Part shown: in pieces, positions 13,427 to 26,242 of the stretch
How positions within the stretch are numbered: the first letter of the stretch is position 1
How the letters are laid out: each line of letters starts with the position of its first letter
DNA from: a virus
Strand: one strand, 5' to 3'
IMG/VR virus record: IMGVR_UViG_3300032326_001795
Coordinates: 1 to 26,540 of that record
Length of the DNA: 26,540 nucleotides
Translations under genes and position numbers: made by a program
The notes under the pieces: model-generated
Told to the model about the DNA's origin: nothing
Databases searched by the model: none
The model's input: only the letters and a program-made list of their open reading frames with translations

Positions 13427-14326
13427 ATGTCCTTAATCCCCAAACCCCCTGCCAAAGTAAACTATCTCAACAACCGAGATATTCTCAAAGAGATTCACCT
13501 CAGCAAAAATACCTATTGCTGGTATCGTGATCCAGATCTGGATCACCAGTTTGATCTCATACTGTCCAGTGTGGACAAGATCAATCAGCGTACTGTGGTA
13601 GAAGCACGCAAGAATCGTGCCGAACGCATCAAGCGCGAAACAGGTGAAGTTGTTGATCAAAAGAAAATCCCCAACACAGATCTGGTGTTTCGCATCACTG
13701 CCTGGGATCACATTCCCAAGGCACCCAAAAAAATCACCAAGGCCGAAGCCAAACGCAAAAAACTAGAAGACATCTTTGAACTGGAGGATGCTGTGAGTGA
13801 TGACCCACTGGCAGATCTTGTGGATGAGCCTGTGTTGAACATGAACTATGTGCGCTTGAACTTTCCGCCGTTTGAACACTACAGACTGGACGACAACAAA
13901 GAACCCTACATCGTGGGTCGCAGTCACTGGAAGGGAGACTTAGCCACAGGTGAGTTCTGCCGTGATCATGGCACCATGACTCGCAAGCTGGCCACCATGT
14001 TCATGAAACTGTGCGAACGTTATGCTACACGCTCTAACTGGCGCGGCTACACCTACAACGAAGAAATGCGCGGTCAAGCTCTGCTGCAACTCAGCCAAAT
14101 TGGCCTGCAGTTTGACGAAAGCAAAAGTCAAAACCCCTTTGCCTACTACACTGCTGCCATAACCAATAGCTTTACTAGAATTCTCAACATTGAAAAGAAG
14201 AATCAAAACATTAGAGACGATATCTTGGAAATCAATGGCTTGAACCCAAGTTGGACTCGACAAAACTCCGGTGCCAAAAGCATGGCCGCTATGAGCGGAC
14301 CGGTTGTGAGCAGTCTTGATGAATAA
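13427..14326 (+). CDS. 55: Late-transcription sigma factor gp55
   Basis: T4 gp55-type sigma factor that directs host RNA polymerase to late promoters carrying TATAAATA-like boxes, with help from the sliding clamp in T4. The conserved part is the C-terminal half: LCERYATRSNWRGYTYNEEM (about residues 195-214), DESKSQNPFAYYTAAITNSF (230-249) and L-N-I-E-K-K-N-Q-N-I-R-D-D, corresponding to sigma region 2. The N-terminus (VNYLNNRDILKEIHLSKNTY) is also typical of the marine T4-like forms. At 299 residues it is far longer than T4's 185. It is transcribed from a near-leaderless promoter and is first in the rightward block, which fits a gene needed before late expression of the leftward block. Confidence 0.92.
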   Translation: MSLIPKPPAKVNYLNNRDILKEIHLSKNTYCWYRDPDLDHQFDLILSSVDKINQRTVVEARKNRAERIKRETGEVVDQKKIPNTDLVFRITAWDHIPKAPKKITKAEAKRKKLEDIFELEDAVSDDPLADLVDEPVLNMNYVRLNFPPFEHYRLDDNKEPYIVGRSHWKGDLATGEFCRDHGTMTRKLATMFMKLCERYATRSNWRGYTYNEEMRGQALLQLSQIGLQFDESKSQNPFAYYTAAITNSFTRILNIEKKNQNIRDDILEINGLNPSWTRQNSGAKSMAAMSGPVVSSLDE

Positions 14327-14329
14327 GGT

Positions 14330-15256
14330 ATGCGCAACAAAGACACTGTGCTGATTATGTATCCGCCAGGCAGCTATGGCTTTTTTCTGAACTGGTGCCT
14401 TGAATATTTTTCTGGTAATCTTTCTAGAGATGCAACATTACCCACGTCAGACACTGTACAACAACAAATGTCAAAACAGTTGCCACCTGCTGCAATATCC
14501 AACGGGGGAATATTTTTTATAGCAGGCAACGGAGTGCACCAACGTTGCAATGTAGCAGACTATGCCAACAACGACATTGAATATCAATTTGGCCGAACTG
14601 TGGCGTTTTTTAGTGATGATCAGAGCCGCAACAAACACAAATCTTACATTCAAGATTATCAAGATCTTTTTAAAAAATTTGTGTGCTTGACTCAGGATCA
14701 ACATTGTTATCTAATGATAAAACACAATTTTTTGAGCAAGCATTCTCGTATGCAGAATTTTGTTGAAAGAACAATATCTATAAACAAAGATATGTTTGGA
14801 GCACAATTACCGGTCCCACGTTGGCAACTTAGAGAAATGATAAGTTTTGAACACAACACAATGTTGGGACTCCATACAGAATTTTACCAACCAGTGTCAC
14901 ACAACAAAGTGATCAATGTTGCGGTCACAGATTTAGTCAATAATTTTCAACTCACCCTGGTCAAACTGTTTGAAGAGCTTGACGTACCAATGCTGTATCA
15001 GGATCAACTAGAAAAAGTTGAAACAGAATGGTTAGCTAACAAGTCGTTTATCAAGATAGATCGCCTATGCCATGATATTGTGGCAGCAGTATTAGATGGG
15101 CACAAGATTTCGTGGCAATCCCACCAATTGACCTTGTTTGACGAAGCATATGTGCAATGTTTGTTGAGAAATAAAAAGTTTGAAATCAGATGTCACGGGC
15201 TTGACACGTTCCCTACAGACAGTTCACAGTTAAAACAACTACTGTATCCTGTGTGA
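14330..15256 (+). CDS. P-loop/sulfotransferase-like protein, paralogue 1 (308 aa)
   Basis: Family uncertain. The N-terminus reads V-L-I-M-YPPGSYGFFL-N-W (motif at residues 11-20), a beta strand followed by a P-G-x-x-G-x-x-L loop. This resembles the 5'-phosphosulfate-binding loop of sulfotransferases or a related P-loop fold. The middle is rich in F, Y and H. A later segment (V-A-V-T-D-L-V-N-N-F-Q-L-T-L-V-K-L-F-E-E-L) aligns by eye with the matching part of the next gene, so the two appear to be paralogues. The start is 3 nt after the gp55 stop with only AAGG upstream, so it is probably coupled. A sample line is about 27% G+C, against 45% in gp55, which suggests later acquisition. Confidence 0.65.
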   Translation: MRNKDTVLIMYPPGSYGFFLNWCLEYFSGNLSRDATLPTSDTVQQQMSKQLPPAAISNGGIFFIAGNGVHQRCNVADYANNDIEYQFGRTVAFFSDDQSRNKHKSYIQDYQDLFKKFVCLTQDQHCYLMIKHNFLSKHSRMQNFVERTISINKDMFGAQLPVPRWQLREMISFEHNTMLGLHTEFYQPVSHNKVINVAVTDLVNNFQLTLVKLFEELDVPMLYQDQLEKVETEWLANKSFIKIDRLCHDIVAAVLDGHKISWQSHQLTLFDEAYVQCLLRNKKFEIRCHGLDTFPTDSSQLKQLLYPV

Positions 15257-15268
15257 ATATTTGTAACA

Positions 15269-15985
15269 ATGATACTATATAATCCAGATCTTGAAAATTT
15301 TGTTGACGGTATCAATTTTGACGCCGATAAGTCATGCATCTGGGTTGTGTACCCTCCAGGATGCGCTGGTGACCTTTTGGCCGCCATCATAAATTTTCAT
15401 TATGTTGAAACTGGTGCAAAGTTTAGAGGCATTAGCGATCGAGGTCGAGTTATTTTTAGGTCGTCTGATCAAAAATATTCTAATCAGTTGGCTAACCAAG
15501 GACAACTAACGTTCAATGATGCATTCTTTTTTAAGATTGCTGACACACTGTCATCAATCAATCTAAACTGGTCAAAAATGGATCAGTTTATTTTTTCCAA
15601 TCATTGTTATTCTGAATCTGACGTACAGCATGTTCTTGACACATTTGAACACTGCAAAATCATAAGACTTTTGCCCAAGACACAACACGAACAAAAAATT
15701 GTCAAATGGCTAGCACAATTTAAAAATCAAAATATTGAACCAGACTTTCCTACGCTGGACTTCGATGACTGTCCGTTGAACTGGCCAGAGGTACAAGATT
15801 GTCGGGTGCTAACTGTGTATTTTAGCGATTTGGTAAGACTTGACAAATTCGATTTGACGTATAGTCTGATTCTCTCACATTTGAACATTGGATCATCTTT
15901 GGTACGACATAATTTTGTACAATATTGGGTCGACCAGCAACATCCCAAAATACAAGAATACATTGTTCGGTTAACCGGCAATTGA
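15269..15985 (+). CDS. P-loop/sulfotransferase-like protein, paralogue 2 (238 aa)
   Basis: Has the same plan as the preceding gene. A strand and loop W-V-V-YPPGCAGDLL (residues 28-37) correspond to the nucleotide/PAPS loop position. A strand K-I-I-R-L-L-P follows that could serve as the 3'-phosphate site (Arg as in sulfotransferase R-x-P motifs). Then comes V-Y-F-S-D-L-V-R-L-D-K-F with a helix and a C-terminal Y-W motif. If truly a sulfotransferase it would move sulfate from PAPS onto a sugar or other hydroxyl group. The catalytic base cannot be assigned, so the activity is unproven. Twelve bases separate it from paralogue 1. The gp47 promoter overlaps its 3' end. Confidence 0.65.
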   Translation: MILYNPDLENFVDGINFDADKSCIWVVYPPGCAGDLLAAIINFHYVETGAKFRGISDRGRVIFRSSDQKYSNQLANQGQLTFNDAFFFKIADTLSSINLNWSKMDQFIFSNHCYSESDVQHVLDTFEHCKIIRLLPKTQHEQKIVKWLAQFKNQNIEPDFPTLDFDDCPLNWPEVQDCRVLTVYFSDLVRLDKFDLTYSLILSHLNIGSSLVRHNFVQYWVDQQHPKIQEYIVRLTGN

Positions 15986-16016: not shown

Positions 16017-17033
16017 ATGAGTAATCTATTTAAAAAAGCCGCAATTTTCACTGACATCCACTTTGGACTAAAGTCAAACTCAGTTCTTCACAATGAGGAC
16101 TGTTTGGCTTTTGTGAAGTGGGTCACTGCCAAAGCACGAGAGGAAGGTTGTGAAACCTGTTTGTTTCTGGGCGATTGGCACAACAATAGATCCAGTTTGA
16201 ACATTGTTACACTGAACTACAGCCTGCGAGCGCTGGAACATCTCAATGCAAATTTTGAACGTGTGTATTTCATTCCTGGCAATCACGATTTGTACTATCG
16301 CGACAAACGAGATATACAAAGTGTTGAGTGGGCTCGGCACCTCCCTAATGTAGAGATTTGCAACGATTGGTTTTGCAGTGACAATGTGGTTATTGCACCT
16401 TGGCTGGTGGGCGATGATCATAAACGGTTAGCAAAAATGTCTGGTCAATACTTGTTTGGGCACTTTGAGCTGCCTGGATATTTGATGAATGCTATGGTAG
16501 CCATGCCAGACCATGGAGAAATTCGCAGAGAAGATCTTTCAGGATTTGATCATGTGTTCACTGGACATTTTCACAAACGACAAACCAAGAAAAACATTAC
16601 CTACATCGGCAATGCTTTCCCGCACAATTATGCAGACGCTGGCGATGACGAACGTGGGCTTACAATTTTGAAATGGGGTTGCGAGCCTGAATATCATGCT
16701 TGGCCCGACCAGCCCACTTACAGAGTTTATGGATTAGCAAATCTTATTGACAATGCTCAGACGCTTCTTAGACCCAAGATGCACGTTAGAGTTAACTTGG
16801 ACATTGAGATCAGTTACGAAGAAGCTAACTACATCAAAGAAACTTTTGTGGAACAGTACAACCTACGTGAAATGAGCTTGATTCCCAACAAAACTTCTGG
16901 CGTAGAAGAAGATTTGGCACCAGGCGAGGTCAAGTTTGAGTCAGTTGATCAGATTGTTACAGATCAGATTACTAACATTGAGTCAGAGTTCTACGACAAC
17001 AAACTGCTGCTGAAGATTTATCAGACCTTGTAA
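16017..17033 (+). CDS. 47: Recombination endonuclease subunit gp47 (SbcD/Mre11-like)
   Basis: Metallophosphoesterase nuclease that pairs with gp46 to resect DNA ends for recombination-dependent replication and to degrade host DNA. All motifs are present: D13-I-H15, G-D53-W-H55-N, G-N89-H90-D91, G-H149-F and G-H184-F-H186. It is 338 residues against 339 in T4. The start chosen is ATG 16017 (M-S-N-L-F-K-K-A): a longer frame from TTG 16002 would run through the promoter -10 box and adds residues not typical of the family. The stop overlaps the next ATG by one base (TAATG). Confidence 0.93.
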   Translation: MSNLFKKAAIFTDIHFGLKSNSVLHNEDCLAFVKWVTAKAREEGCETCLFLGDWHNNRSSLNIVTLNYSLRALEHLNANFERVYFIPGNHDLYYRDKRDIQSVEWARHLPNVEICNDWFCSDNVVIAPWLVGDDHKRLAKMSGQYLFGHFELPGYLMNAMVAMPDHGEIRREDLSGFDHVFTGHFHKRQTKKNITYIGNAFPHNYADAGDDERGLTILKWGCEPEYHAWPDQPTYRVYGLANLIDNAQTLLRPKMHVRVNLDIEISYEEANYIKETFVEQYNLREMSLIPNKTSGVEEDLAPGEVKFESVDQIVTDQITNIESEFYDNKLLLKIYQTL

Positions 17034-18604
17034 TGATTCAAGTCATAAACGATTTACAAAAATTATACGATACCGCAGGTCCATATTTCCTGTCAGATTT
17101 CTACAAACCTGGCGGCGAAAAACGTTTGCATGAGTTTTTGACATCTGTGTATCAGCCTGAATTCAAAAACAATTTTCGTATTCTGATCGTACAAGACTGT
17201 GTTGACGAATATGACTATCATGATTTACCCGGGCGAGCCGTTTGCACGTTACAAAAATATGCCAGTCAGATTGATATCAGCAATTTTTTTATATTGGTAT
17301 TGTCAGGCAACACACAAATTGATCAAGAGCTAGAACAAGCAAGAAAACTCTATTCCACCGATACCTTGTGCATTCAGAGTCAGTTTGTTCATGACATGTT
17401 GTACAACAGATCAGATAACAAAAAAAGCAATACATTCTGTGTTTTGCCCTGGGTACATCTTTATGTTGGTCCTGACGGAAACGTGTTGCCATGCTGTGTA
17501 GCTGACCAACAACACCCCATGGGCAATATAAACCAGCAATCAATAGACAGCATTGTAAAATCAGAAAAATTCAATCAGTTGCGATATAACATGTTAAATG
17601 GCAATCGCGTCAAGGAATGCAGCCGATGTTATCAACAAGAAGATGCTGGCATTCCAAGTTCTCGGGTATATCACAATGTCAAATGGTCTGACCGCATAAC
17701 GCAACATAACCCCGACGGGTCAATTGATCAATTTGAGCCGTTGTATCTTGACTTACGACTGAACAATATCTGTAATTTGAAATGTAGGATGTGCAGTGGT
17801 TACTTTAGCAGTGCTATTGCACAAGAAGAACAAAAACTGTTTGGAAACAGCAAACATTTAGATAATCTGCTAGTCTCTGATCAAAAGGATATATCTTTAG
17901 AAAAACTTCTAAAGTATTTGCCGTATTGTGAAAAAATATATTTTGCCGGAGGCGAACCTTTGCTGGCCAGCGAACACTACAAGATTTTGAATGCACTGAT
18001 AGAGTGCAACAACACTGACTTAGAAATTGTTTACAATACCAACTTTACAACACTGACTTACAAAAATGTATCTGTTATTGATTTGTGGAAACAATTTTCA
18101 AACGTAACAATTGGCGCAAGTCTTGACGCCATGGGACCAGTAGCTGAATATGTAAGACATGGAACCAATTGGATAGACATTGAATCAAATTTAAAATTGT
18201 TGAGGAATAATTGCCAACATGTTGTTTTTACAGTGACATCCACTGCTGGATTTTTGAACGTTTCAAGTTTGATTGAACTACAAAAAAGCTGGCACGAAAA
18301 CAATGTTGTTGACATTTCGAACTTTAGTGTCTCAACTATGGTAGGTCCAGACTATCTGACACTAAGAATTTTACCTCTGCATCACAAAGAACGATTAGGA
18401 CAAAAGATAAAGAGTCATATTGATTGGTGCCAGCAGAATCAGGCAACAGCTCTTGCAAATCAGTGGGAATCTGTGTTAAAGTATATGTTTAATACAGACG
18501 CAACTCATCATCTGTCCAAATTTAAACAATTGACCAATTTGATGGACCAACACAGAAACGAGTCCTTGCAGTCAGTGCTTCCAGAATTTTCAGATCTTTT
18601 ATGA
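17033..18604 (+). CDS. Radical SAM enzyme 1, twitch/SPASM-like cysteines N-terminal to the core
   Basis: The radical SAM [4Fe-4S] motif is C247-N-L-K-C251-R-M-C254, with G-G-E-P at 306-309. This predicts a 5'-deoxyadenosyl-radical enzyme. Residues ~1-130 form a separate alpha/beta region of unknown role. Between it and the core lies a cysteine-rich segment (C136, C154-C155 in G-N-V-L-P-C-C-V, C196-S-R-C199). This looks like the auxiliary-cluster 'twitch' or half-SPASM seen after the core in peptide- and sugar-modifying family members, but here it precedes the core. The gene is wedged between gp47 (1-nt overlap) and gp46 (4-nt ATGA overlap) with no ribosome site of its own. A sample line is about 32% G+C, against 50% in gp46. 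The substrate cannot be deduced. Confidence 0.85.
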   Translation: MIQVINDLQKLYDTAGPYFLSDFYKPGGEKRLHEFLTSVYQPEFKNNFRILIVQDCVDEYDYHDLPGRAVCTLQKYASQIDISNFFILVLSGNTQIDQELEQARKLYSTDTLCIQSQFVHDMLYNRSDNKKSNTFCVLPWVHLYVGPDGNVLPCCVADQQHPMGNINQQSIDSIVKSEKFNQLRYNMLNGNRVKECSRCYQQEDAGIPSSRVYHNVKWSDRITQHNPDGSIDQFEPLYLDLRLNNICNLKCRMCSGYFSSAIAQEEQKLFGNSKHLDNLLVSDQKDISLEKLLKYLPYCEKIYFAGGEPLLASEHYKILNALIECNNTDLEIVYNTNFTTLTYKNVSVIDLWKQFSNVTIGASLDAMGPVAEYVRHGTNWIDIESNLKLLRNNCQHVVFTVTSTAGFLNVSSLIELQKSWHENNVVDISNFSVSTMVGPDYLTLRILPLHHKERLGQKIKSHIDWCQQNQATALANQWESVLKYMFNTDATHHLSKFKQLTNLMDQHRNESLQSVLPEFSDLL

Positions 18605-20679
18605 TTCATTTTAAAAACTTAACTGTTAGAAACTTTATGAGTGTGGGCAATGCCACACAAGGTATTGACTTTGATCGCAGAGATCTTACACTGGTACTAG
18701 GCGAGAACTTGGATCTAGGAGGTGACGGCAGTCGCAACGGCACAGGCAAGACCACTATTATCAATGCTCTCAGCTATGCTCTGTACGGCAATGCGCTGTC
18801 AAACATTCGCAAAGATAATCTTGTGAACAAAACCAACAGCAAGCACATGTTGGTTAGTTTAGACTTTAGCATCAACGGACAAGACTACCGAATTGAGCGC
18901 GGTCGCAAGCCCAATGTGCTGAGATTCTTTGTGAACAACGAAGACAAAAGTTCTGACGATGCACAAGGCGACAGTCGTGAAACACAAGAAGCCATCGAGC
19001 GTGTGATCGGTATGAGTCATGACATGTTCCGTCATGTGTTGGCGCTAAACACCTACACTGAACCGTTCTTGAGTTTGAAGGCCAATGACCAACGTGCGAT
19101 CATTGAACAGTTGTTGGGTATTACTTTGCTGAGCGAACGTGCTGACCGGATCAAAGAACTCAACAAACAAACCAAAGAAGCTATTAGCCAAGAAGAATTC
19201 CGTATTCGTGCTGTTCAAGAGGCCAACAAGCGTATCGAAGAACAGATCGAAAGCCTGCGTCGGCGACAGACGTTATGGCGCACCAAATACGACAGTGACT
19301 TGGCAGCTTTGGTCACTCAGTACGACGATCTAGCCACAGTTGACATAGAACTAGAACTTGCTGCTCACAAAGAACTGACTACATGGAGCCAACTCAAGCA
19401 ACAACGGGACAGCCGTGACGCTTTGGTTGCTAGACAAACCGCCTGGCAGCAAAAGCATGATGCAGAGGTTGACGCAGCCAGTCGTGCATATCTGGACAAA
19501 AATCGCATCAACATTGAAACAGAGTTGGAGAACTGGGCAGCATTGTCTGCACACAATCACAAAGCTCGAGACATTGCTGAACTTGAAAAACTCATTGCTC
19601 GGTGTGTTGCAGACGAAGCCAAAGAAGTCAAACAAGTTGAAAAACTTCGTGCTGAAATTGCAGAACTGCAAAATCACAAGTGTTATGCTTGCGGGCAGGA
19701 CTTTCACGACACCAATCATGAATCTGTATTGGCTGCAAAACAAAAAGCCTTACAAGAAGCGGCCCTTCAAGCATTGGCTACCAACACTCAGTGGATTGAA
19801 CACACAGATGCACTGCTGAAGTTGGGCGAGCTTGGTGTTGCTCCCGCAACACACTATAACACTGAAGCCGAAGCAATCCGACACAGCAGCGAACTCAACA
19901 GCCTAAAGCAAACACTGGATACAAAGACTGCAGAAACAAATCCTTTTACTGAGCAGCTGAATGAGCTTGAAGACGTTGTGGTTCCTCCTATGCCAGTTAC
20001 TCATTACGACACTGAAGCAGAAGCTATCAAACACTCCAGCCAAGTCAGCAGTTTGTTAACACAGATCACAAACAAGCATGCCGAAACTGATCCCTACGGT
20101 GAGCAGATTGCAGACATGCAGACCAAAGCCTTGCAAACTGTGAGCTATGATGCTCTCAACGAACTTGTACGAGTACAGGAACATCAAGATTTCTTGCTCA
20201 AGTTATTGACCAGCAAGGACAGCTTTGTTCGTAAAAAGATCATTGACCAGAACTTGAGCTACTTGAACAGTCGTCTTACTCACTATCTGGATCGTATTGG
20301 CTTGCCACACACAGTGAAGTTTCAAAATGACTTGAGTGTCAGCATTGAAGAGCTAGGTCGCGAATTGGACTTTGACAACCTCAGCCGTGGTGAGCGCAAC
20401 CGACTGATTCTTTCAATGAGCTGGGCGTTCCGTGATGTTTGGGAAAGCCTATATCATCCTATCAACTTGCTGTTCATCGACGAACTCATTGACAACGGTC
20501 TAGACACACAGGGTGTAGAAAACGCCTTGGCTATTCTCAAGAAGATGAGTCGAGAACGCAACAAGAGTATTTGGCTTGTGAGTCACAGAGAAGAATTGGC
20601 TGGACGAGTTGAGAACATACTCAAAGTGGTCAAAGAAAACGGCTTTACCAACTATAATACAGATGTAGAGGTAGCATGA
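18601..20679 (+). CDS. 46: Recombination endonuclease subunit gp46 (SbcC/Rad50-like ATPase)
   Basis: SMC-type ATPase partner of gp47. Walker A is G-S-R-N-G-T-G-K-T (43-51). A coiled coil follows, then a zinc-hook C361-Y-A-C364 at the tip, a return coiled coil, the ABC signature L-S-R-G-E (594-598) and Walker B L-L-F-I-D-E (623-628). It is 692 residues, longer than T4's 560. Part of the excess is two tandem 50-residue units after the hook (residues 418-467 and 468-517). The start overlaps the radical SAM 1 stop (ATGA). Confidence 0.93.
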   Translation: MIHFKNLTVRNFMSVGNATQGIDFDRRDLTLVLGENLDLGGDGSRNGTGKTTIINALSYALYGNALSNIRKDNLVNKTNSKHMLVSLDFSINGQDYRIERGRKPNVLRFFVNNEDKSSDDAQGDSRETQEAIERVIGMSHDMFRHVLALNTYTEPFLSLKANDQRAIIEQLLGITLLSERADRIKELNKQTKEAISQEEFRIRAVQEANKRIEEQIESLRRRQTLWRTKYDSDLAALVTQYDDLATVDIELELAAHKELTTWSQLKQQRDSRDALVARQTAWQQKHDAEVDAASRAYLDKNRINIETELENWAALSAHNHKARDIAELEKLIARCVADEAKEVKQVEKLRAEIAELQNHKCYACGQDFHDTNHESVLAAKQKALQEAALQALATNTQWIEHTDALLKLGELGVAPATHYNTEAEAIRHSSELNSLKQTLDTKTAETNPFTEQLNELEDVVVPPMPVTHYDTEAEAIKHSSQVSSLLTQITNKHAETDPYGEQIADMQTKALQTVSYDALNELVRVQEHQDFLLKLLTSKDSFVRKKIIDQNLSYLNSRLTHYLDRIGLPHTVKFQNDLSVSIEELGRELDFDNLSRGERNRLILSMSWAFRDVWESLYHPINLLFIDELIDNGLDTQGVENALAILKKMSRERNKSIWLVSHREELAGRVENILKVVKENGFTNYNTDVEVA
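19852..20151 (+). repeat. 46: Tandem 50-residue duplication inside gp46
   Basis: Two adjacent 150-bp units encode residues 418-467 (HYNTEAEAIRHSSELNSL...) and 468-517 (HYDTEAEAIKHSSQVSSL...). Similarity continues through A-E-T-N-P-F-T-E-Q-L versus A-E-T-D-P-Y-G-E-Q-I. The DNA has diverged at many third positions, so the duplication is old and maintained at protein level. It lengthens the returning arm of the coiled coil after the zinc hook. Confidence 0.8.
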
Positions 20680-21314
20680 CCGTAAAAATTTTCGAAAATG
20701 TTTTTTCCAAAGAAGAACTGCAACAACTGTGCGAGTTTTACGCACAACTGCCAGTCGCTAACACACGGTATTTGGACAACAGCAAGCTGTTTCGCATCAT
20801 AAAAAACAGCGAGTACAATCTTGAAGATCAGTTGCCTTACAAAATTCTTCATGAGAAATTGACACAGACTCTGGGCCCACATCATTTTACTGGTGGTCAC
20901 TGGATGGACTCACACGCTCCCTTTAGGTGTCACATCGACAACATAGCCAACTATACTGCTCGAGGAGTTCCGATACATCACTCTGAATTGCACAAAAATG
21001 TTGGAGTATTGATACCACTGTGCGAGGGAGAACATTTTCAAACCATATTTTTTGATCACATGCTTGATCAGCTTTATCCTGGCTACATGAACGACTTGGC
21101 CAACAACAGTGACACAGAACTTGATTCAGTCACAATGTCTTTGCTGGACCATCACAGTGCTGACGAATGTGAAAAAATCAAAAAGTTTAAACTAGCAAAC
21201 ATTGTGCGCTGGAAACTAGGCAACATGTTCACTTGGCCGCGAGACCAACTGCACTGTAGTTCAAACTTTGAAAAATATGGTCTTACCAAACAAGCCATTG
21301 TGTTATGGTTGTAA
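20676..21314 (+). CDS. 2-oxoglutarate/Fe(II)-dependent dioxygenase
   Basis: A 212-residue protein of the 2OG-Fe(II) oxygenase superfamily, which hydroxylates or otherwise oxidises proteins, nucleic acids or small molecules using 2-oxoglutarate and O2. The iron ligands are visible: H86-I-D88 in F-R-C-H-I-D-N, and distal H193 in W-P-R-D-Q-L-H-C-S-S-N-F. K205 twelve residues later (G-L-T-K) is suitably placed to bind the 2OG carboxylate. Such enzymes are frequent in marine T4-like phages and their targets are mostly unknown. The start overlaps the gp46 stop (ATGA), with a GAGG ribosome site inside the gp46 end. Confidence 0.82.
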   Translation: MTVKIFENVFSKEELQQLCEFYAQLPVANTRYLDNSKLFRIIKNSEYNLEDQLPYKILHEKLTQTLGPHHFTGGHWMDSHAPFRCHIDNIANYTARGVPIHHSELHKNVGVLIPLCEGEHFQTIFFDHMLDQLYPGYMNDLANNSDTELDSVTMSLLDHHSADECEKIKKFKLANIVRWKLGNMFTWPRDQLHCSSNFEKYGLTKQAIVLWL

Positions 21315-21317
21315 AAT

Positions 21318-22823
21318 ATGATTGACATACTGCTAATCAATGTTCCGCAAATTTCTCTGGTGTATCCACCTGCGGCCACCAGCCTACTAAAAGGCATTTG
21401 CATTCGGCAGGGGTTTTTGGCGCAGGTCCAGGACTACAACTTAAAACTCTACAACGAATGCCAAGACCAAGCTATATCACAAGAACTGGATCAATATTTT
21501 AGTTTAAACGATGCTGGTGCTGAGTTAAGCAATGTTGCTCAAGCCTATCTTGATCAGTACTACCAACAAGTGATCAACGAAATCATTGAAGTCAATCCAA
21601 AGTTCTTGGGTATCAGCGTTTTTACGTTTCAATGTCAAATTTTTACACAACAACTGTTGCAACGCCTAAGATCAAAATTCAAAAACAAGATTGTGGTAGG
21701 AGGCGCCGGACTGTCCACCAATGGTATTGCATCAACACAAAACGATTTTGGACGTGACTTGTTGGCCAAGAATTTGGTTGATTATTACATACGGGGCGAA
21801 GGCGATTATGCCTTGATTGAACTGCTCAAAGGCAATGTTGATTGCCCAGGTATCAACAACGACAACCAACAACAGATTGATGATCTTGACAGTATTCCTT
21901 ATCCTGACTACAGTGATGTAGTGTCATCCTCATATCGTTGGTCCACTGGAAATCCGCAAATTCCTGTGACTGGCAGCAGAGGGTGCATTAGAAAATGCAG
22001 TTTCTGCGACATTCATGTTGCCTGGAAAAAATATCGTTATCGTTCAGGCAAAAATTTAGCTAAAGAATTCATACATCATTACCAAACACACAACATCAGA
22101 AACTTTTGGTTCACTGACAGTTTGATCAACGGCAGCATGAAAAGTTTCAGAGCATTTTGCAAATCACTGATTGAGTTCTATCAAGAAAACAATTTACCTC
22201 TTCGATATTTCAACTGGGGAGGACAGTTTATTGTGAGAGATTGTCGTAGCATGACTGCTGCAGATTATAAATTGGCTGCTGATGCCGGCATGAATGGTGT
22301 GGCCATGGGTGTGGAAAGTCTAAGTGAATCTGTCAGAGATCACATGAAAAAAGGCTTCAGCAACGAAGATCTTGACTTTACCATGCAGCAGATTCATGCC
22401 AACAACATGAACTGTTATTTTTTGATGATTGTGGGCTATCCCACAGAAACAATGCGCGACTTTGATGACACTGTGCAAAAATTCACAGAGTATCAAAAAT
22501 ACGCATTGGATGGTACTATCTATGGGGTGAACCTAGGCAGCACAGCCAGCATCGACGAAGGAACTCCACTATGGAATGATGTTGATAGTTTGAACATGGA
22601 TCCTGAGAGACAAAACCAAGGATATAACTGGCTGAGTTTAAACAATCCATCATTGACCTTTAAAGAACGCATTCGTCGGCGTATTGTGTTACAAGAAACA
22701 CTGATGGATCTTGGCTACAAAATTTGGAATGGCGATAGTCAGTTAATAAAACTTCAAGAAGCATACAAAAAAATCAATGAAGGAAACTATAAAACTAAAA
22801 TTAATCTACCAGTCCCAGAATAA
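21318..22823 (+). CDS. Radical SAM enzyme 2, B12-binding-like N-terminus
   Basis: Residues ~1-170 form a Rossmann-like domain (I-D-I-L-L-I-N-V-P, then F-L-G-I-S-V-F-T-F-Q, I-V-V-G-G-A-G and Y-Y-I-R-G-E-G-D) arranged like the cobalamin-binding domain of class B radical SAM enzymes. The His of the DxHxxG cobalamin motif is not seen. The radical SAM motif is C223-I-R-K-C227-S-F-C230. Members with this layout carry out methylations, cyclisations or oxidations in lipid, sugar and natural-product pathways. It follows the dioxygenase by 3 nt and its 3' end overlaps the next gene by 47 nt. The reaction is unknown. Confidence 0.85.
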   Translation: MIDILLINVPQISLVYPPAATSLLKGICIRQGFLAQVQDYNLKLYNECQDQAISQELDQYFSLNDAGAELSNVAQAYLDQYYQQVINEIIEVNPKFLGISVFTFQCQIFTQQLLQRLRSKFKNKIVVGGAGLSTNGIASTQNDFGRDLLAKNLVDYYIRGEGDYALIELLKGNVDCPGINNDNQQQIDDLDSIPYPDYSDVVSSSYRWSTGNPQIPVTGSRGCIRKCSFCDIHVAWKKYRYRSGKNLAKEFIHHYQTHNIRNFWFTDSLINGSMKSFRAFCKSLIEFYQENNLPLRYFNWGGQFIVRDCRSMTAADYKLAADAGMNGVAMGVESLSESVRDHMKKGFSNEDLDFTMQQIHANNMNCYFLMIVGYPTETMRDFDDTVQKFTEYQKYALDGTIYGVNLGSTASIDEGTPLWNDVDSLNMDPERQNQGYNWLSLNNPSLTFKERIRRRIVLQETLMDLGYKIWNGDSQLIKLQEAYKKINEGNYKTKINLPVPE

Positions 22824-23268
22824 CAACGGCTGGCCAATGATTATGATAAAGATCAACGACACTGTTGTTGAAAGGTTTCATGCTGACAGTTCAGAATGGA
22901 GTGGCAGTTTTTGTGTTGATGTTCAATCACACAATTTTCTCAAAATAGAACACTACGGAAAAAATTACATCACTGATCAAAACCCTGACAAGTACTTTGA
23001 ATTAAAACAAGTGTTCATAAACGATGTTGATCTCAAACATCACTTGCACAAAATCAAGCAAACTGCGTACTTGCCTCCTTGGGACACAGTTGGGCCACCA
23101 GAACACAGTTTGTATCTAGGACACAACGGATACCTAGGATTGGAATTCCACAGTCCTGTTAACTCATGGCTGCAGACGCTTTTTGGAATCACAACTGAGA
23201 CCATGCACGGACAACAAACTTCTAGGTCAGTGCTGAACAGTGTAAAAAAATATTTTGAAATACCATAA
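22777..23268 (+). CDS. Unknown beta-rich protein between two radical SAM genes (163 aa)
   Basis: No family recognised. The N-terminal ~80 residues alternate strand-like segments (I-K-L-K-L-I-Y-Q-S, W-P-M-I-M-I-K-I-N-D, F-L-K-I-E-H-Y-G-K-N, F-E-L-K-Q-V-F-I-N-D-V-D-L) and look like a small beta-sandwich, resembling carbohydrate-binding modules in layout. The C-terminal half has a distinctive L-P-P-W-D-x6-P-E-H-S-L-Y-L-G-H-N-G-Y segment and a Trp/Tyr/His-rich surface. The start at 22777 overlaps radical SAM 2 by 47 nt. It is preferred over ATG 22838 because the first strand would otherwise be lost, but 22838 remains possible. It ends in a 1-nt overlap with radical SAM 3. It could be a substrate or partner of the flanking enzymes, or a ligand-binding accessory protein. 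Confidence 0.7.
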   Translation: MKETIKLKLIYQSQNNNGWPMIMIKINDTVVERFHADSSEWSGSFCVDVQSHNFLKIEHYGKNYITDQNPDKYFELKQVFINDVDLKHHLHKIKQTAYLPPWDTVGPPEHSLYLGHNGYLGLEFHSPVNSWLQTLFGITTETMHGQQTSRSVLNSVKKYFEIP

Positions 23269-24371
23269 TGTTTCAGTTTGATACCGTCAGCGAATACCAG
23301 TTAGAAATAACCAGCTACTGCAATGCAGCATGTCCTCAATGCCCTCGCAACAAGTTGGGTGTGGGTATCAACCCCTACATGCCCCTGACGCATCTAGATC
23401 GAACTGTGATCGATCGTGCGTTCGACTCAAATCTATGCAAACAACTGAAACAAGTATTTTTTTGCGGCAGTTACGGTGACCCTATCATGCATCCAGAGTT
23501 CTTGGATATTTTGCGTGATTTTAGACGTAAAAATCCCACCTTGTGGCTGTATGTTCATACCAATGGTGGTGTTCACGAACCTGGCTACTGGGCAGAAATT
23601 GCATCAATCATGGCCGGCTACGGTCAAATTGATTTTGGCATCGACGGCCTGGAAGACACTTTACATTTGTATCGCAAGAATGTAAAATATCACAAAGTCA
23701 TTGATAATGCACAAGCGTTTATCTCAGCTGGCGGCAGAGCACAATGGAACTTTATTGTGTTTCGTCACAATCAACATCAGGTTGCACAAGTTCAACAGCT
23801 AGGCCAAGACATGGGATTTTTCAATGTACTGATTAGAAAAACTGGACGTTTTTTAAATCATAACACCATGGAGGAAATGCCCGTTTGGCCTGTGGCAAAC
23901 TCCAGCTATGTTCTACAACCTCCCAGTATTCCCGAATATCAAAATCCAAGCATGAACAACTTGCCTGAGCTCAAAAAACAGTACAGTGACATAAAACAGT
24001 ATTTTGACACCACACCTATACAATGTGATGCCTTGAAAGGACGCAAAGTGGCCGTCAATGCTGAGGGATTGGTGTTGCCTTGTAATTTTTTCAATCACAA
24101 TCTCTATGATGCAAGATTTAGAGACAACAGTTTGCCCGGTGCTAGTTTTTTGCATCAGCCCAACGGCCGCAATCAAGTGAGAGAATTTCTCGAAGGTTAC
24201 GGACTAGAAAATCTCAGTATTCACCATCGTTCTTTACAACAAATATTTGACAACAAGTTCTGGACAGATCTTGTGGAATCATTTACCAACAATCGCAGAC
24301 TATTTGAATGTGCTTTTACCTGCGGTGAAAAATTTACCAAGGTCTGGGACCAAGGAGGAAATCTCAAATGA
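23268..24371 (+). CDS. Radical SAM enzyme 3 with SPASM-like C-terminus
   Basis: The radical SAM motif C18-N-A-A-C22-P-Q-C25 sits very near the N-terminus (E-Y-Q-L-E-I-T-S-Y-C), as in SPASM enzymes. G-S-Y-G-D-P (67-72) takes the place of the G-G-E-P motif. C-terminal cysteines C253, C272 (G-L-V-L-P-C-N), C348 and C352 fit an auxiliary Fe-S cluster domain. Related SPASM proteins modify peptides (sactipeptide and quinohaemoprotein maturases) or sugars. The start overlaps the preceding stop by one base. The 3' end contains the AAGGAGG ribosome site of the next gene and overlaps it by ATGA. Confidence 0.85.
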   Translation: MFQFDTVSEYQLEITSYCNAACPQCPRNKLGVGINPYMPLTHLDRTVIDRAFDSNLCKQLKQVFFCGSYGDPIMHPEFLDILRDFRRKNPTLWLYVHTNGGVHEPGYWAEIASIMAGYGQIDFGIDGLEDTLHLYRKNVKYHKVIDNAQAFISAGGRAQWNFIVFRHNQHQVAQVQQLGQDMGFFNVLIRKTGRFLNHNTMEEMPVWPVANSSYVLQPPSIPEYQNPSMNNLPELKKQYSDIKQYFDTTPIQCDALKGRKVAVNAEGLVLPCNFFNHNLYDARFRDNSLPGASFLHQPNGRNQVREFLEGYGLENLSIHHRSLQQIFDNKFWTDLVESFTNNRRLFECAFTCGEKFTKVWDQGGNLK

Positions 24372-24952
24372 AAATGCTAGTGACAGGCGGCAATCGAGGA
24401 CTAGGATTGCATTTAACTGAAATATTTGGTGCTGACAGTGTCAGCAGGACCAGCGGCACCGATATCACCAAAGATTATCAGGCTATTGCGCAAAAAAGTT
24501 TAGAATACGACATATTTGTGAACAATGCGTTTGATGGGCCGCCGCAAGAGCCATGGGCAAATTTTGCACAAGTTCAAGTGTATATGGCTGTTTATGATGC
24601 ATGGAAAGCAGCTGGCAAGATTGGCTACATTTTCAATATTGGCAGTGTTGGCAGCAAAAGTATTGTATCACCTGAACCTAGATTTGAAACCTACAGAGTC
24701 AGCAAAGCGGCACTGGAACATGCCAGCAAACAAGGCACACAAGCATTCAAACAAAATGCTGTGCCTTTTAAAACAACACTGATCACACCGGATAGACTGG
24801 ACACAGATCTCAGTCGCAGCAGGCCAAACTGGACCGGCAACGGTGTTGCACTACAGGATATCACTGATTTTATAAAATACGCTGTCGCAGTGTCACCAAA
24901 CACTGTGATAGAAGAGGCAACATTTTACGTTAACTTTGATCATAAGGCATAA
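24368..24952 (+). CDS. Short-chain dehydrogenase/reductase (compact SDR)
   Basis: NAD(P)-dependent oxidoreductase of the SDR fold. The cofactor motif is T6-G-G-N-R-G-L-G13, N-N-A is at 52-54, the catalytic Ser is S93 in N-I-G-S-V-G-S, and Y109-x3-K113 is in Y-R-V-S-K. The catalytic set is intact although the protein has only 194 residues against about 250 for a typical SDR. The early alpha/beta units are shortened. Basic R10 after G-G-N suggests a preference for NADPH. It is one of the few genes in this block with a strong ribosome site (AAGGAGG, 9 nt before ATG). The likely substrate is a sugar or small alcohol/ketone, not determinable here. Confidence 0.85.
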   Translation: MKMLVTGGNRGLGLHLTEIFGADSVSRTSGTDITKDYQAIAQKSLEYDIFVNNAFDGPPQEPWANFAQVQVYMAVYDAWKAAGKIGYIFNIGSVGSKSIVSPEPRFETYRVSKAALEHASKQGTQAFKQNAVPFKTTLITPDRLDTDLSRSRPNWTGNGVALQDITDFIKYAVAVSPNTVIEEATFYVNFDHKA

Positions 24953-24984
24953 CTATAGCACAAGTACAAATTCACTGACCACAC

Positions 24985-25413
24985 ATGACATGGCACTATC
25001 AAAACACCCCAGTCGAGACATTGCCCGAAGAATGTGTGGGATTTGTTTACTTGATCACAAATAATCTATCTGGACGCAAGTACATAGGCAAAAAATTAGC
25101 AAAATTTAGCAAGACCACTTACAAAACAGTCAAGCAAAAAAACGGCATCAAAAAGAAAAAGAAAGTTCGCACCAAGGTCGATTCAGACTGGCGTGAATAC
25201 TACGGATCAAGTCCGGAACTTTCAAAAGACATTGAACAACTAGGCACCGAAAATTTCTCCAGAGAGATACTGTTCTACTGTGCTTCCAAGTCAGAATGTA
25301 GCTACATTGAGGCTCGGGAACAATTCAGTAGAAGAGTATTGGAATCATTAGATTATTACAACGGGCATATACAAGTAAGAGTACACGGCTCTCATATCTT
25401 AAACAAAATTTAA
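24985..25413 (+). CDS. GIY-YIG nuclease-family protein (Seg-like)
   Basis: A 142-residue protein with a GIY-YIG-type core: G19-F-V-Y22-L-I-T-N, Y33-I-G-K-K, D-W-R-E-Y-Y-G-S-S (68-76) and glutamate E109 in Y-I-E-A-R-E, which takes the place of the metal-binding catalytic Glu. A Lys-rich stretch (residues 50-64) could contact DNA. Stand-alone GIY-YIG proteins of this size are common in T4-like phages, where Seg members act as homing endonucleases. No extra DNA-recognition domain is visible, so a homing role is only one possibility. It is preceded by a 32-nt gap without a recognisable ribosome site. A sample line is about 30% G+C. Confidence 0.8.
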   Translation: MTWHYQNTPVETLPEECVGFVYLITNNLSGRKYIGKKLAKFSKTTYKTVKQKNGIKKKKKVRTKVDSDWREYYGSSPELSKDIEQLGTENFSREILFYCASKSECSYIEAREQFSRRVLESLDYYNGHIQVRVHGSHILNKI

Positions 25414-25414
25414 A

Positions 25415-26242
25415 ATGAAAAAAGTTATTTTTACTGGATGTTCTTTTACTGCAGGAAACGGATGGACCAACACTGATCCAGAAAAAAGCCTGCGTATAGA
25501 ACGCAAAGATCATCCTGAGCTATGGGTGAATTTATGTCATGATCAAATTTTAAAATTAAAAAAATTAGAACTTGTAAATGCTGGAATTGCTGGCGCTAGT
25601 AATACAGAAATATTTCAAACCACAGTTGACAACATAAGCAGTTACAAAGATATTGATACAGTTTTTTGTCAATGGACTGCTATGCCAAGATATAACTTCA
25701 GTATTGGATTTGAACTGTGGTCTACATCCGAAGGATTACAGCCTACTGCAAGATCTAAATTTGATGTCAAACTCAGCAACGGCGATCAATGGAGTAGGAA
25801 ATATTTAGATGACATGCTTGATAGATTGTTGTCTTTGCATCATTTGCATGGAGAAATTCTCAAAGTCGTAAAATATTCTGGTATTTTGAAAAAGCTGTGC
25901 AAAAAGCTTGGTATTAAATTGTATTTTATCAACGGCATATGCCCGTGGGACCAAGATTATTTTGTTAGATTGAACAACGTATTACCAGAATCATATACAC
26001 CCTTTACTAAAAAACAAATACTTGACATTGATTCAAAAGACGACGCTGACATCTTTAAACTTTACGAAATTCTTCACAACGATTATGACAAAGCTGGTGC
26101 AATTGATCCTGCAGACTGGATCAACCTGTACAACTCAATGCGAAAAAACACACTCGACACAAACTTCGACAATCTACATCCAGGCACCCAAAGCAATCAA
26201 CTATACTTTCAACAAGTTAAAAATTTCTTAGAAAACCACTAA
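25415..26242 (+). CDS. SGNH/GDSL-type hydrolase
   Basis: Predicted esterase/lipase-fold protein of 275 residues. Block I is V-I-F-T-G-C-S10-F-T-A-G-N-G, carrying the nucleophilic Ser. Block II is N-A-G-I-A-G-A-S-N63. Block V is D252-N-L-H255-P-G, giving the Asp and His of the triad. Family members deacylate sugars, lipids or polysaccharides. In a phage this could remove acetyl groups from surface glycans or act in the same pathway as the upstream enzymes. It follows the GIY-YIG gene with a one-base gap and has no ribosome site. A sample line is about 32% G+C. A perfect 6-bp hairpin straddles its stop codon. Confidence 0.8.
   Translation: MKKVIFTGCSFTAGNGWTNTDPEKSLRIERKDHPELWVNLCHDQILKLKKLELVNAGIAGASNTEIFQTTVDNISSYKDIDTVFCQWTAMPRYNFSIGFELWSTSEGLQPTARSKFDVKLSNGDQWSRKYLDDMLDRLLSLHHLHGEILKVVKYSGILKKLCKKLGIKLYFINGICPWDQDYFVRLNNVLPESYTPFTKKQILDIDSKDDADIFKLYEILHNDYDKAGAIDPADWINLYNSMRKNTLDTNFDNLHPGTQSNQLYFQQVKNFLENH

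Follow-up and report, generated by a model that had tools for sequence, protein, structure and literature searches.

Pelagimyophages carry cassettes of radical S-adenosylmethionine (SAM) genes in their host-recognition cluster (PMC7029224), and the T4-like environmental virus TARA_ERS488813_N000010 has 12 radical SAM genes, which have been linked to Fe-S metabolism (PMC5332604). In T-even phages, the endonuclease SegE drives non-reciprocal genetic exchange (cited in PMC2988022), and among characterized enzymes the radical SAM diol dehydratase AprD4 works with a dedicated NADPH-dependent reductase, AprD3 (PMC5461906). Here, we analysed the IMG/VR virus record IMGVR_UViG_3300032326_001795, in which three radical SAM genes (rSAM1, rSAM2 and rSAM3) and further enzyme genes are inserted around the recombination genes gp47 and gp46; the window, to which all gene coordinates refer, is the whole stretch of 26,540 nt (26.5 kb). 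The phage belongs to a clade of large T4-related phages from aquatic habitats that have not been cultured, and the locus is a cassette-exchange hotspot, consisting of a fixed backbone with junctions that are filled or empty depending on the phage.

This organization resembles that of the pelagimyophages, which are likewise T4-like and possess a variable region with radical SAM cassettes that differ between close relatives (PMC7029224). However, the pelagimyophage cassettes are located in a tail-fibre island between VrlC and gp14, whereas the site described here is gp55-gp47-gp46-segE, and one radical-SAM-specific slot with two constant gene pairs sets it apart from them. We considered and rejected an assignment to a pelagimyophage-type host recognition cluster, as in the relatives the site is flanked by gp55-gp47 on one side and by the portal/baseplate-hub region on the other. 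The likeness to TARA_ERS488813_N000010 consists in the many radical SAM genes per T4-like genome, with 3-17 in each of the large relatives studied here, while the available part of PMC5332604 gives no pairs or insertion site for the TARA genes. In view of these two reports, the statement of an earlier, sequence-only reading of this DNA that no described phage system came to mind was too strong; the slot site, the constant pair of a radical SAM enzyme and a short-chain dehydrogenase/reductase (SDR), and a partner protein resembling carbohydrate-binding module (CBM) family 60 nevertheless appear undescribed so far.

The relatives were collected in IMG/VR scans, which returned 9 loci for rSAM2, the best 80 of 188 matches for rSAM3, the best 80 of 155 for the SDR, the best 80 of 108 for the small protein beta and, for gp47, 80 kept of at least 599 matches. 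The loci from the rSAM2, rSAM3, SDR and gp47 scans gave 136 groups after deduplication (95% identity over 40%). Because some scans used radical SAM queries, the sampled loci partly favour radical SAM content of the slots, and related loci are not independent, so that the p-value for the co-occurrence of rSAM3 and the SDR given below is indicative only. Across the relatives, the order gp55-gp47-gp46-segE is kept, with gp55 constantly upstream of gp47 and segE present in 92 of the 92 gp46 loci that have 7 kb of downstream sequence. We designated the junctions gp55|gp47, gp47|gp46 and gp46|segE as slots A, B and C, respectively, and the position after segE, which holds an SGNH-like gene in the window, as slot D. 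Slot A is empty in 54 of 94 loci, slot B in 26 of 104 and slot C in 11 of 113, and occupancy thus climbs towards segE from 43 to 75 and 90%, a gradient that fits endonuclease-driven exchange without showing it. The empty gp47|gp46 junction is usually a 4-nt overlap, and because these 26 relatives have nothing between the two genes, the link of the cargo to gp47 and gp46 is only positional. The cargo is mostly co-directional, without exception in slots A and B, and its GC content is lower than that of the backbone in 92 of 94 loci (38.8 vs 44.0%). Filled junctions carry radical SAM, SGNH and GGxG-type proteins and, more rarely, methyltransferases, SDRs, 2-oxoglutarate (2OG)-dependent oxygenase-like, AMP-binding, TctC and amidinotransferase-like proteins; SGNH, GGxG and amidinotransferase-like are labels assigned by eye from motifs. 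Slot C is almost reserved for radical SAM genes, one of which is found in 92 of the 102 filled slots (90%). The locus is a sharp example of T4-type phages exchanging cassettes of enzyme genes at fixed junctions within a core operon.

Within this cargo, rSAM3 and the SDR constitute one inseparable unit. The rSAM3 gene (23268-24371, plus strand, as are all genes given with coordinates here) encodes a radical SAM protein (PF04055, 40.2 bits) with a putative C-terminal twitch/SPASM-like region; the CxxxCxxC motif is present in 75 of 76 homologues, and in the C-terminal part Cys272, Cys348 and Cys352 are invariant and Cys253 nearly so. There was no SPASM match in Pfam. The predicted fold has SkfB (Z 19.0), SuiB, MoaA and anSME as neighbours, with low confidence at the C-terminal end of the model, and places rSAM3 among SPASM/twitch enzymes that act on peptides and sugars alike. 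The partner, a compact SDR oxidoreductase (24368-24952), has intact TGxxxGxG, NNA and YxxxK motifs, which were found in all 77 homologues; it reached 26.4 bits against PF00106, just under the cut-off of 26.6, and a PDB sequence search with its alignment returned nothing useful. Among 97 complete loci, 49 contain both genes and 48 neither, without a single discordant case (p 8e-29), and the subset from the gp47 scan gave the same picture (6 both, 48 neither, none with only one of them). The two genes were adjacent in 74/74 and 75/75 cases and are fused into one open reading frame (ORF) in four contigs (L006, L329, L370 and L373), with a linker in L006 that differs from that of the L329/L370/L373 group. 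These counts and fusions describe a radical SAM gene with an obligate reductase partner, and rSAM3-SDR resembles AprD4/AprD3 in this arrangement, an analogy of the "works like" kind only. A sequence relationship to AprD4 was rejected: a search of PDB chains with the rSAM3 profile gave no match at E 0.01, although AprD4 (6fd2) was in the set. A genome scan with the same profile found no bacterial relative and hence no bacterial context for the unit, and isolate phages provided no relative of the SDR, the 2OG-like protein or beta and only matches of <30% for the radical SAM proteins.

The second unit consists of rSAM2 and beta, which are nearly always found together. The putatively B12-type radical SAM enzyme rSAM2 (21318-22823; PF04055, 48.6 bits) has the CxxxCxxC motif in 39 of 39 homologues. 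Its match to the B12-binding domain PF02310 (E 5.5e-5, 23.4 bits) is below the cut-off of 32.1, as are its similarities to many B12-radical SAM models of NCBIfam, the best of which is TIGR03975 (93.8 bits); the best PDB match is 9ccb (E 1.4e-12). For the small protein beta (22777-23268), a PDB sequence search with the alignment gave nothing useful, and its AlphaFold2 model (pLDDT 86) is predicted to fold like the carbohydrate-binding modules of CBM60, with Z scores of 10.8 for 2xhh and 10.5 for 2xfd compared with 6.4 for the next row, over about 105-113 residues at 11-12% identity. Beta thus resembles the calcium-dependent CBM60/CBM36 modules (2xfd, 2xhh, 7ay3) in predicted fold, but differs from them in being encoded on its own downstream of a radical SAM gene. 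A match to the beta profile follows 34 of 39 rSAM2 genes (a few matches being weak), and an rSAM2-family gene lies directly upstream of beta in at least 43 of 57 loci, a count lowered by genes that the ORF caller drops. The pair is a portable unit, since it is inverted relative to gp46 in L006-L011 and, in the more distant contigs L326-L333 (except L329) and L338, located outside the gp46 neighbourhood, in most cases surrounded by further radical SAM genes. When genomes were scanned with the rSAM2 profile, only remote B12-radical SAM proteins were detected (best 35%, L236; others about 21-30%), and none of the nine best matches had a beta-like neighbour. In L353, L366, L368, L369 and L382, two aminotransferase-like proteins take the place of rSAM3-SDR behind rSAM2-beta; these were assigned by eye from an SLSK motif and, for one, from a PDB match of E 0.005, and most of these loci have a second beta-like ORF in between.

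The enzyme families tested have kept their catalytic motifs, and the median dN/dS of 0.065-0.082 for rSAM2, rSAM3, SDR and beta is near the backbone values, pointing to strong purifying selection and bearing out the earlier claim that the catalytic residues are intact. What had been a vague enzyme cluster can thus be resolved into testable units, two motif-conserved pairs of which one is naturally fused, and the carbohydrate-binding-like partner hints at a substrate class. With moderate confidence, we favour a cassette hotspot whose two enzyme pairs serve glycan tailoring, with rSAM3-SDR resembling a dehydratase or dehydrogenase plus its reductase. Glycans are the most likely targets of the cassettes, where we infer the chemistry from the enzyme families and guess the substrate from one fold match. 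In this model, rSAM3 would catalyse a dehydrogenation or a diol dehydration by abstracting hydrogen at a carbon that bears a hydroxyl group, and the SDR would then use NAD(P)H to reduce the carbonyl so formed, in the manner of AprD4/AprD3, while the CBM60-like beta may bring rSAM2 to a sugar chain for methylation or a related radical reaction of the B12 type. The proteins rSAM1, 2OG and SGNH would be separate add-on tailoring cassettes, the glycan acted upon would belong to the virion or to the surface of the host, and fast turnover of cassettes would let phages vary its chemistry. The exchange may be driven by double-strand breaks that SegE initiates and by their repair with gp46 and gp47. 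In favour of glycans, the other cargo includes SDRs, methyltransferases and SGNH proteins, and a second radical SAM array described below carries a carbamoyltransferase and, in one phage, an NAD-dependent epimerase. A bolder version, which we put forward only tentatively, is a phage-restricted, exchangeable system of glycan editing by radical chemistry, in which the radical SAM-SDR pair and a CBM60-guided B12-type radical SAM enzyme occupy a dedicated slot of the T4 recombination operon and pass from one phage to another to change surface sugars during infection.

Several observations weigh against glycan tailoring. The predicted fold of beta is the sole evidence on the substrate, for the closest solved or curated relatives of rSAM2 and rSAM3 (SkfB, SuiB, anSME, 9ccb) peptide or protein substrates are no less common than sugars, GT2 glycosyltransferases are few in the large relatives (0-2 each), and a distance-matrix test (partial Mantel) gave no co-evolution of rSAM3 and the SDR beyond the phage phylogeny (partial r -0.11, n=20). 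The alternative that we rank next is the modification of a peptide or protein of the virion or host in the style of maturases of ribosomally synthesized and post-translationally modified peptides (RiPPs), in which beta would have a CBM-like fold but serve to recognize peptides or proteins. TIGR03975, the best NCBIfam match of rSAM2, is a RiPP C-methyltransferase, the enzyme in 9ccb methylates a glutamine of methyl-coenzyme M reductase, and the fold neighbours of rSAM3 and the scarcity of GT2 enzymes point in the same direction. Nevertheless, we noticed no precursor-peptide gene in the loci, in which short ORFs were not screened, the fold match of beta is to a carbohydrate-binding family and stands well above the other rows, and the cargo and a second array described below hold enzymes of sugar type (SDR, epimerase, carbamoyltransferase), which makes peptide modification possible but rather unlikely.

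Glycan tailoring is also to be compared with the possibility that the cargo is unrelated, selfish or auxiliary, and that a recombination hotspot simply gathers arriving genes with no shared chemistry. Neither the slot-B radical SAM genes nor the 2OG-like gene showed a significant association with the other units (Fisher p 0.11 and 1.0, respectively, against rSAM3), and cargo as diverse as TctC and AMP-binding proteins would be expected from such gathering; yet the preponderance of radical SAM genes in filled slots C, the two constant pairs with their natural fusions, and dN/dS near backbone values render it improbable. The same association tests bear on the proposal of the sequence-only reading that all these enzymes form one multistep pathway expressed together with recombination functions. 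The single strand and overlapping reading frames speak for it, as does the association of rSAM3 with rSAM2 (22 loci with both, 27 with rSAM3 only, 3 with rSAM2 only and 45 with neither; p 1.5e-5), and the parts of the set do recur beside gp47/gp46 in relatives, as that reading had asked to be checked. However, only the rSAM3-SDR and rSAM2-beta pairs belong together, the remaining genes come and go, rSAM2-beta can be inverted relative to gp46, and gp47 and gp46 adjoin without cargo in many loci, so the co-occurrence counts largely refute a single pathway, which we consider very improbable. Equally far-fetched is a hypermodification of DNA or nucleotides tied to recombination, for which the gp46/gp47 neighbourhood and the existence of DNA-modifying 2OG enzymes in phages can be cited, as the cargo swaps freely while the surrounding DNA genes stay unchanged and no unit member matched known DNA-modification families in scans of Pfam, PHROG and NCBIfam.

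In the window, baseplate genes occupy the minus strand, and the plus-strand run comprises gp55, two ORFs without assignment, gp47, rSAM1, gp46, the 2OG-like gene, rSAM2, beta, rSAM3, SDR, the GIY-YIG endonuclease gene and the SGNH-like gene. The genes are real and had been correctly read on one strand with gp47/gp46, and most junctions from gp47 to SDR overlap as described (6 of 7): by 1 nt for gp47/rSAM1, 4 nt for rSAM1/gp46 and gp46/2OG, 47 nt for rSAM2/beta, 1 nt for beta/rSAM3 and 4 nt for rSAM3/SDR, with a 3-nt gap at 2OG/rSAM2. The assignments in the original gene list hold, but it overlooked the endonuclease gene between SDR and SGNH (24985-25413), and two further cargo ORFs lie upstream of gp47 in slot A. 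One of them (14330-15256; GC 39%, no Pfam match) belongs to a recurrent GGxG-type family with homologues at about 27% in the same slot of other loci; the other (15269-15985; GC 37.7%, no Pfam match) has a homologue occupying slot D of L022.

The slot B gene of the window encodes rSAM1 (17033-18604), a twitch/SPASM radical SAM protein that matched NF033640, "twitch domain-containing radical SAM" (N_Twi_rSAM), with E 3e-115 and 385.5 bits at a cut-off of 170 and, like rSAM2 and rSAM3, exceeded the cut-off of PF04055 (Radical_SAM). Its SPASM domain is N-terminal (residues 136-200), and CxxxCxxC is present in all 14 homologues (25-65%). The 2OG-Fe(II)-oxygenase-like protein (20676-21314) is rare in slot C; its HxD...H motif is invariant in 3 of 3 homologues. 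The SGNH-hydrolase-like protein of slot D (25415-26242; GC 35.2%) has SGNH blocks I, II, III and V, with Ser10, Gly60, Asn63 and His255 invariant in 9 homologues. For both proteins the labels given earlier thus agree with conserved motifs, while neither has a match in Pfam, PHROG or NCBIfam, nor the 2OG-like protein in PDB sequences. Viral-contig scans with rSAM1 alone and 2OG alone found no relative; the homologues appeared in loci fetched by other queries. Slot-D genes appear to come and go relative to rSAM3-SDR and rSAM2-beta.

Regarding the backbone, gp55 (13427-14326) is a late sigma factor-like gene (phrog_12791, E 1.3e-75) upstream of slot A, and gp47 (16017-17033; SbcD-like, phrog_100, E 4.5e-60) is 65-91% identical in relatives; its start was set to ATG 16017 rather than TTG 16002 because homologues start there. 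For gp46 (18601-20679; SbcC-like ATPase, phrog_77, E 3e-105), the nearest isolate-phage proteins are those of PA5oct-type jumbo phages (44%). Two types of gp46, of about 587 and 693 aa, occur in the relatives, and identities to the window are 90% for gp47 and 62% for gp46 in L150 but 88 and 86% in L164, a sign that alleles of gp46 may have been replaced between slots B and C. The SegE-type endonuclease bounding slot C reached 113.4 bits against PF19835 (cut-off 25), in conflict with the PHROG label "NAD synthetase" (phrog_447). It shares with free-standing GIY-YIG homing endonucleases such as T4 SegE (PMC2988022) the family, the free-standing gene and the T4-like genome; in contrast to T4 SegE, it is found in all examined relatives with sufficient downstream sequence, bounding a cargo slot.

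A second conserved locus is an array of four to six radical SAM genes in L228-L234, which are parts of the records behind L064, L109, L213, L226, L011, L216 and L157. Part of it is a NodU-type carbamoyltransferase, which matched PF02543/PF16861 in both members that were scanned; some members also have amidinotransferase-like and SGNH-like proteins, and one phage has an NAD-dependent epimerase. The array adjoins what look by eye like tail-fibre genes. Finally, L007 and L083 have slot-B cargo that resembles TctC, a tripartite tricarboxylate receptor; this is a possible host clue and may hint at the Burkholderiales.

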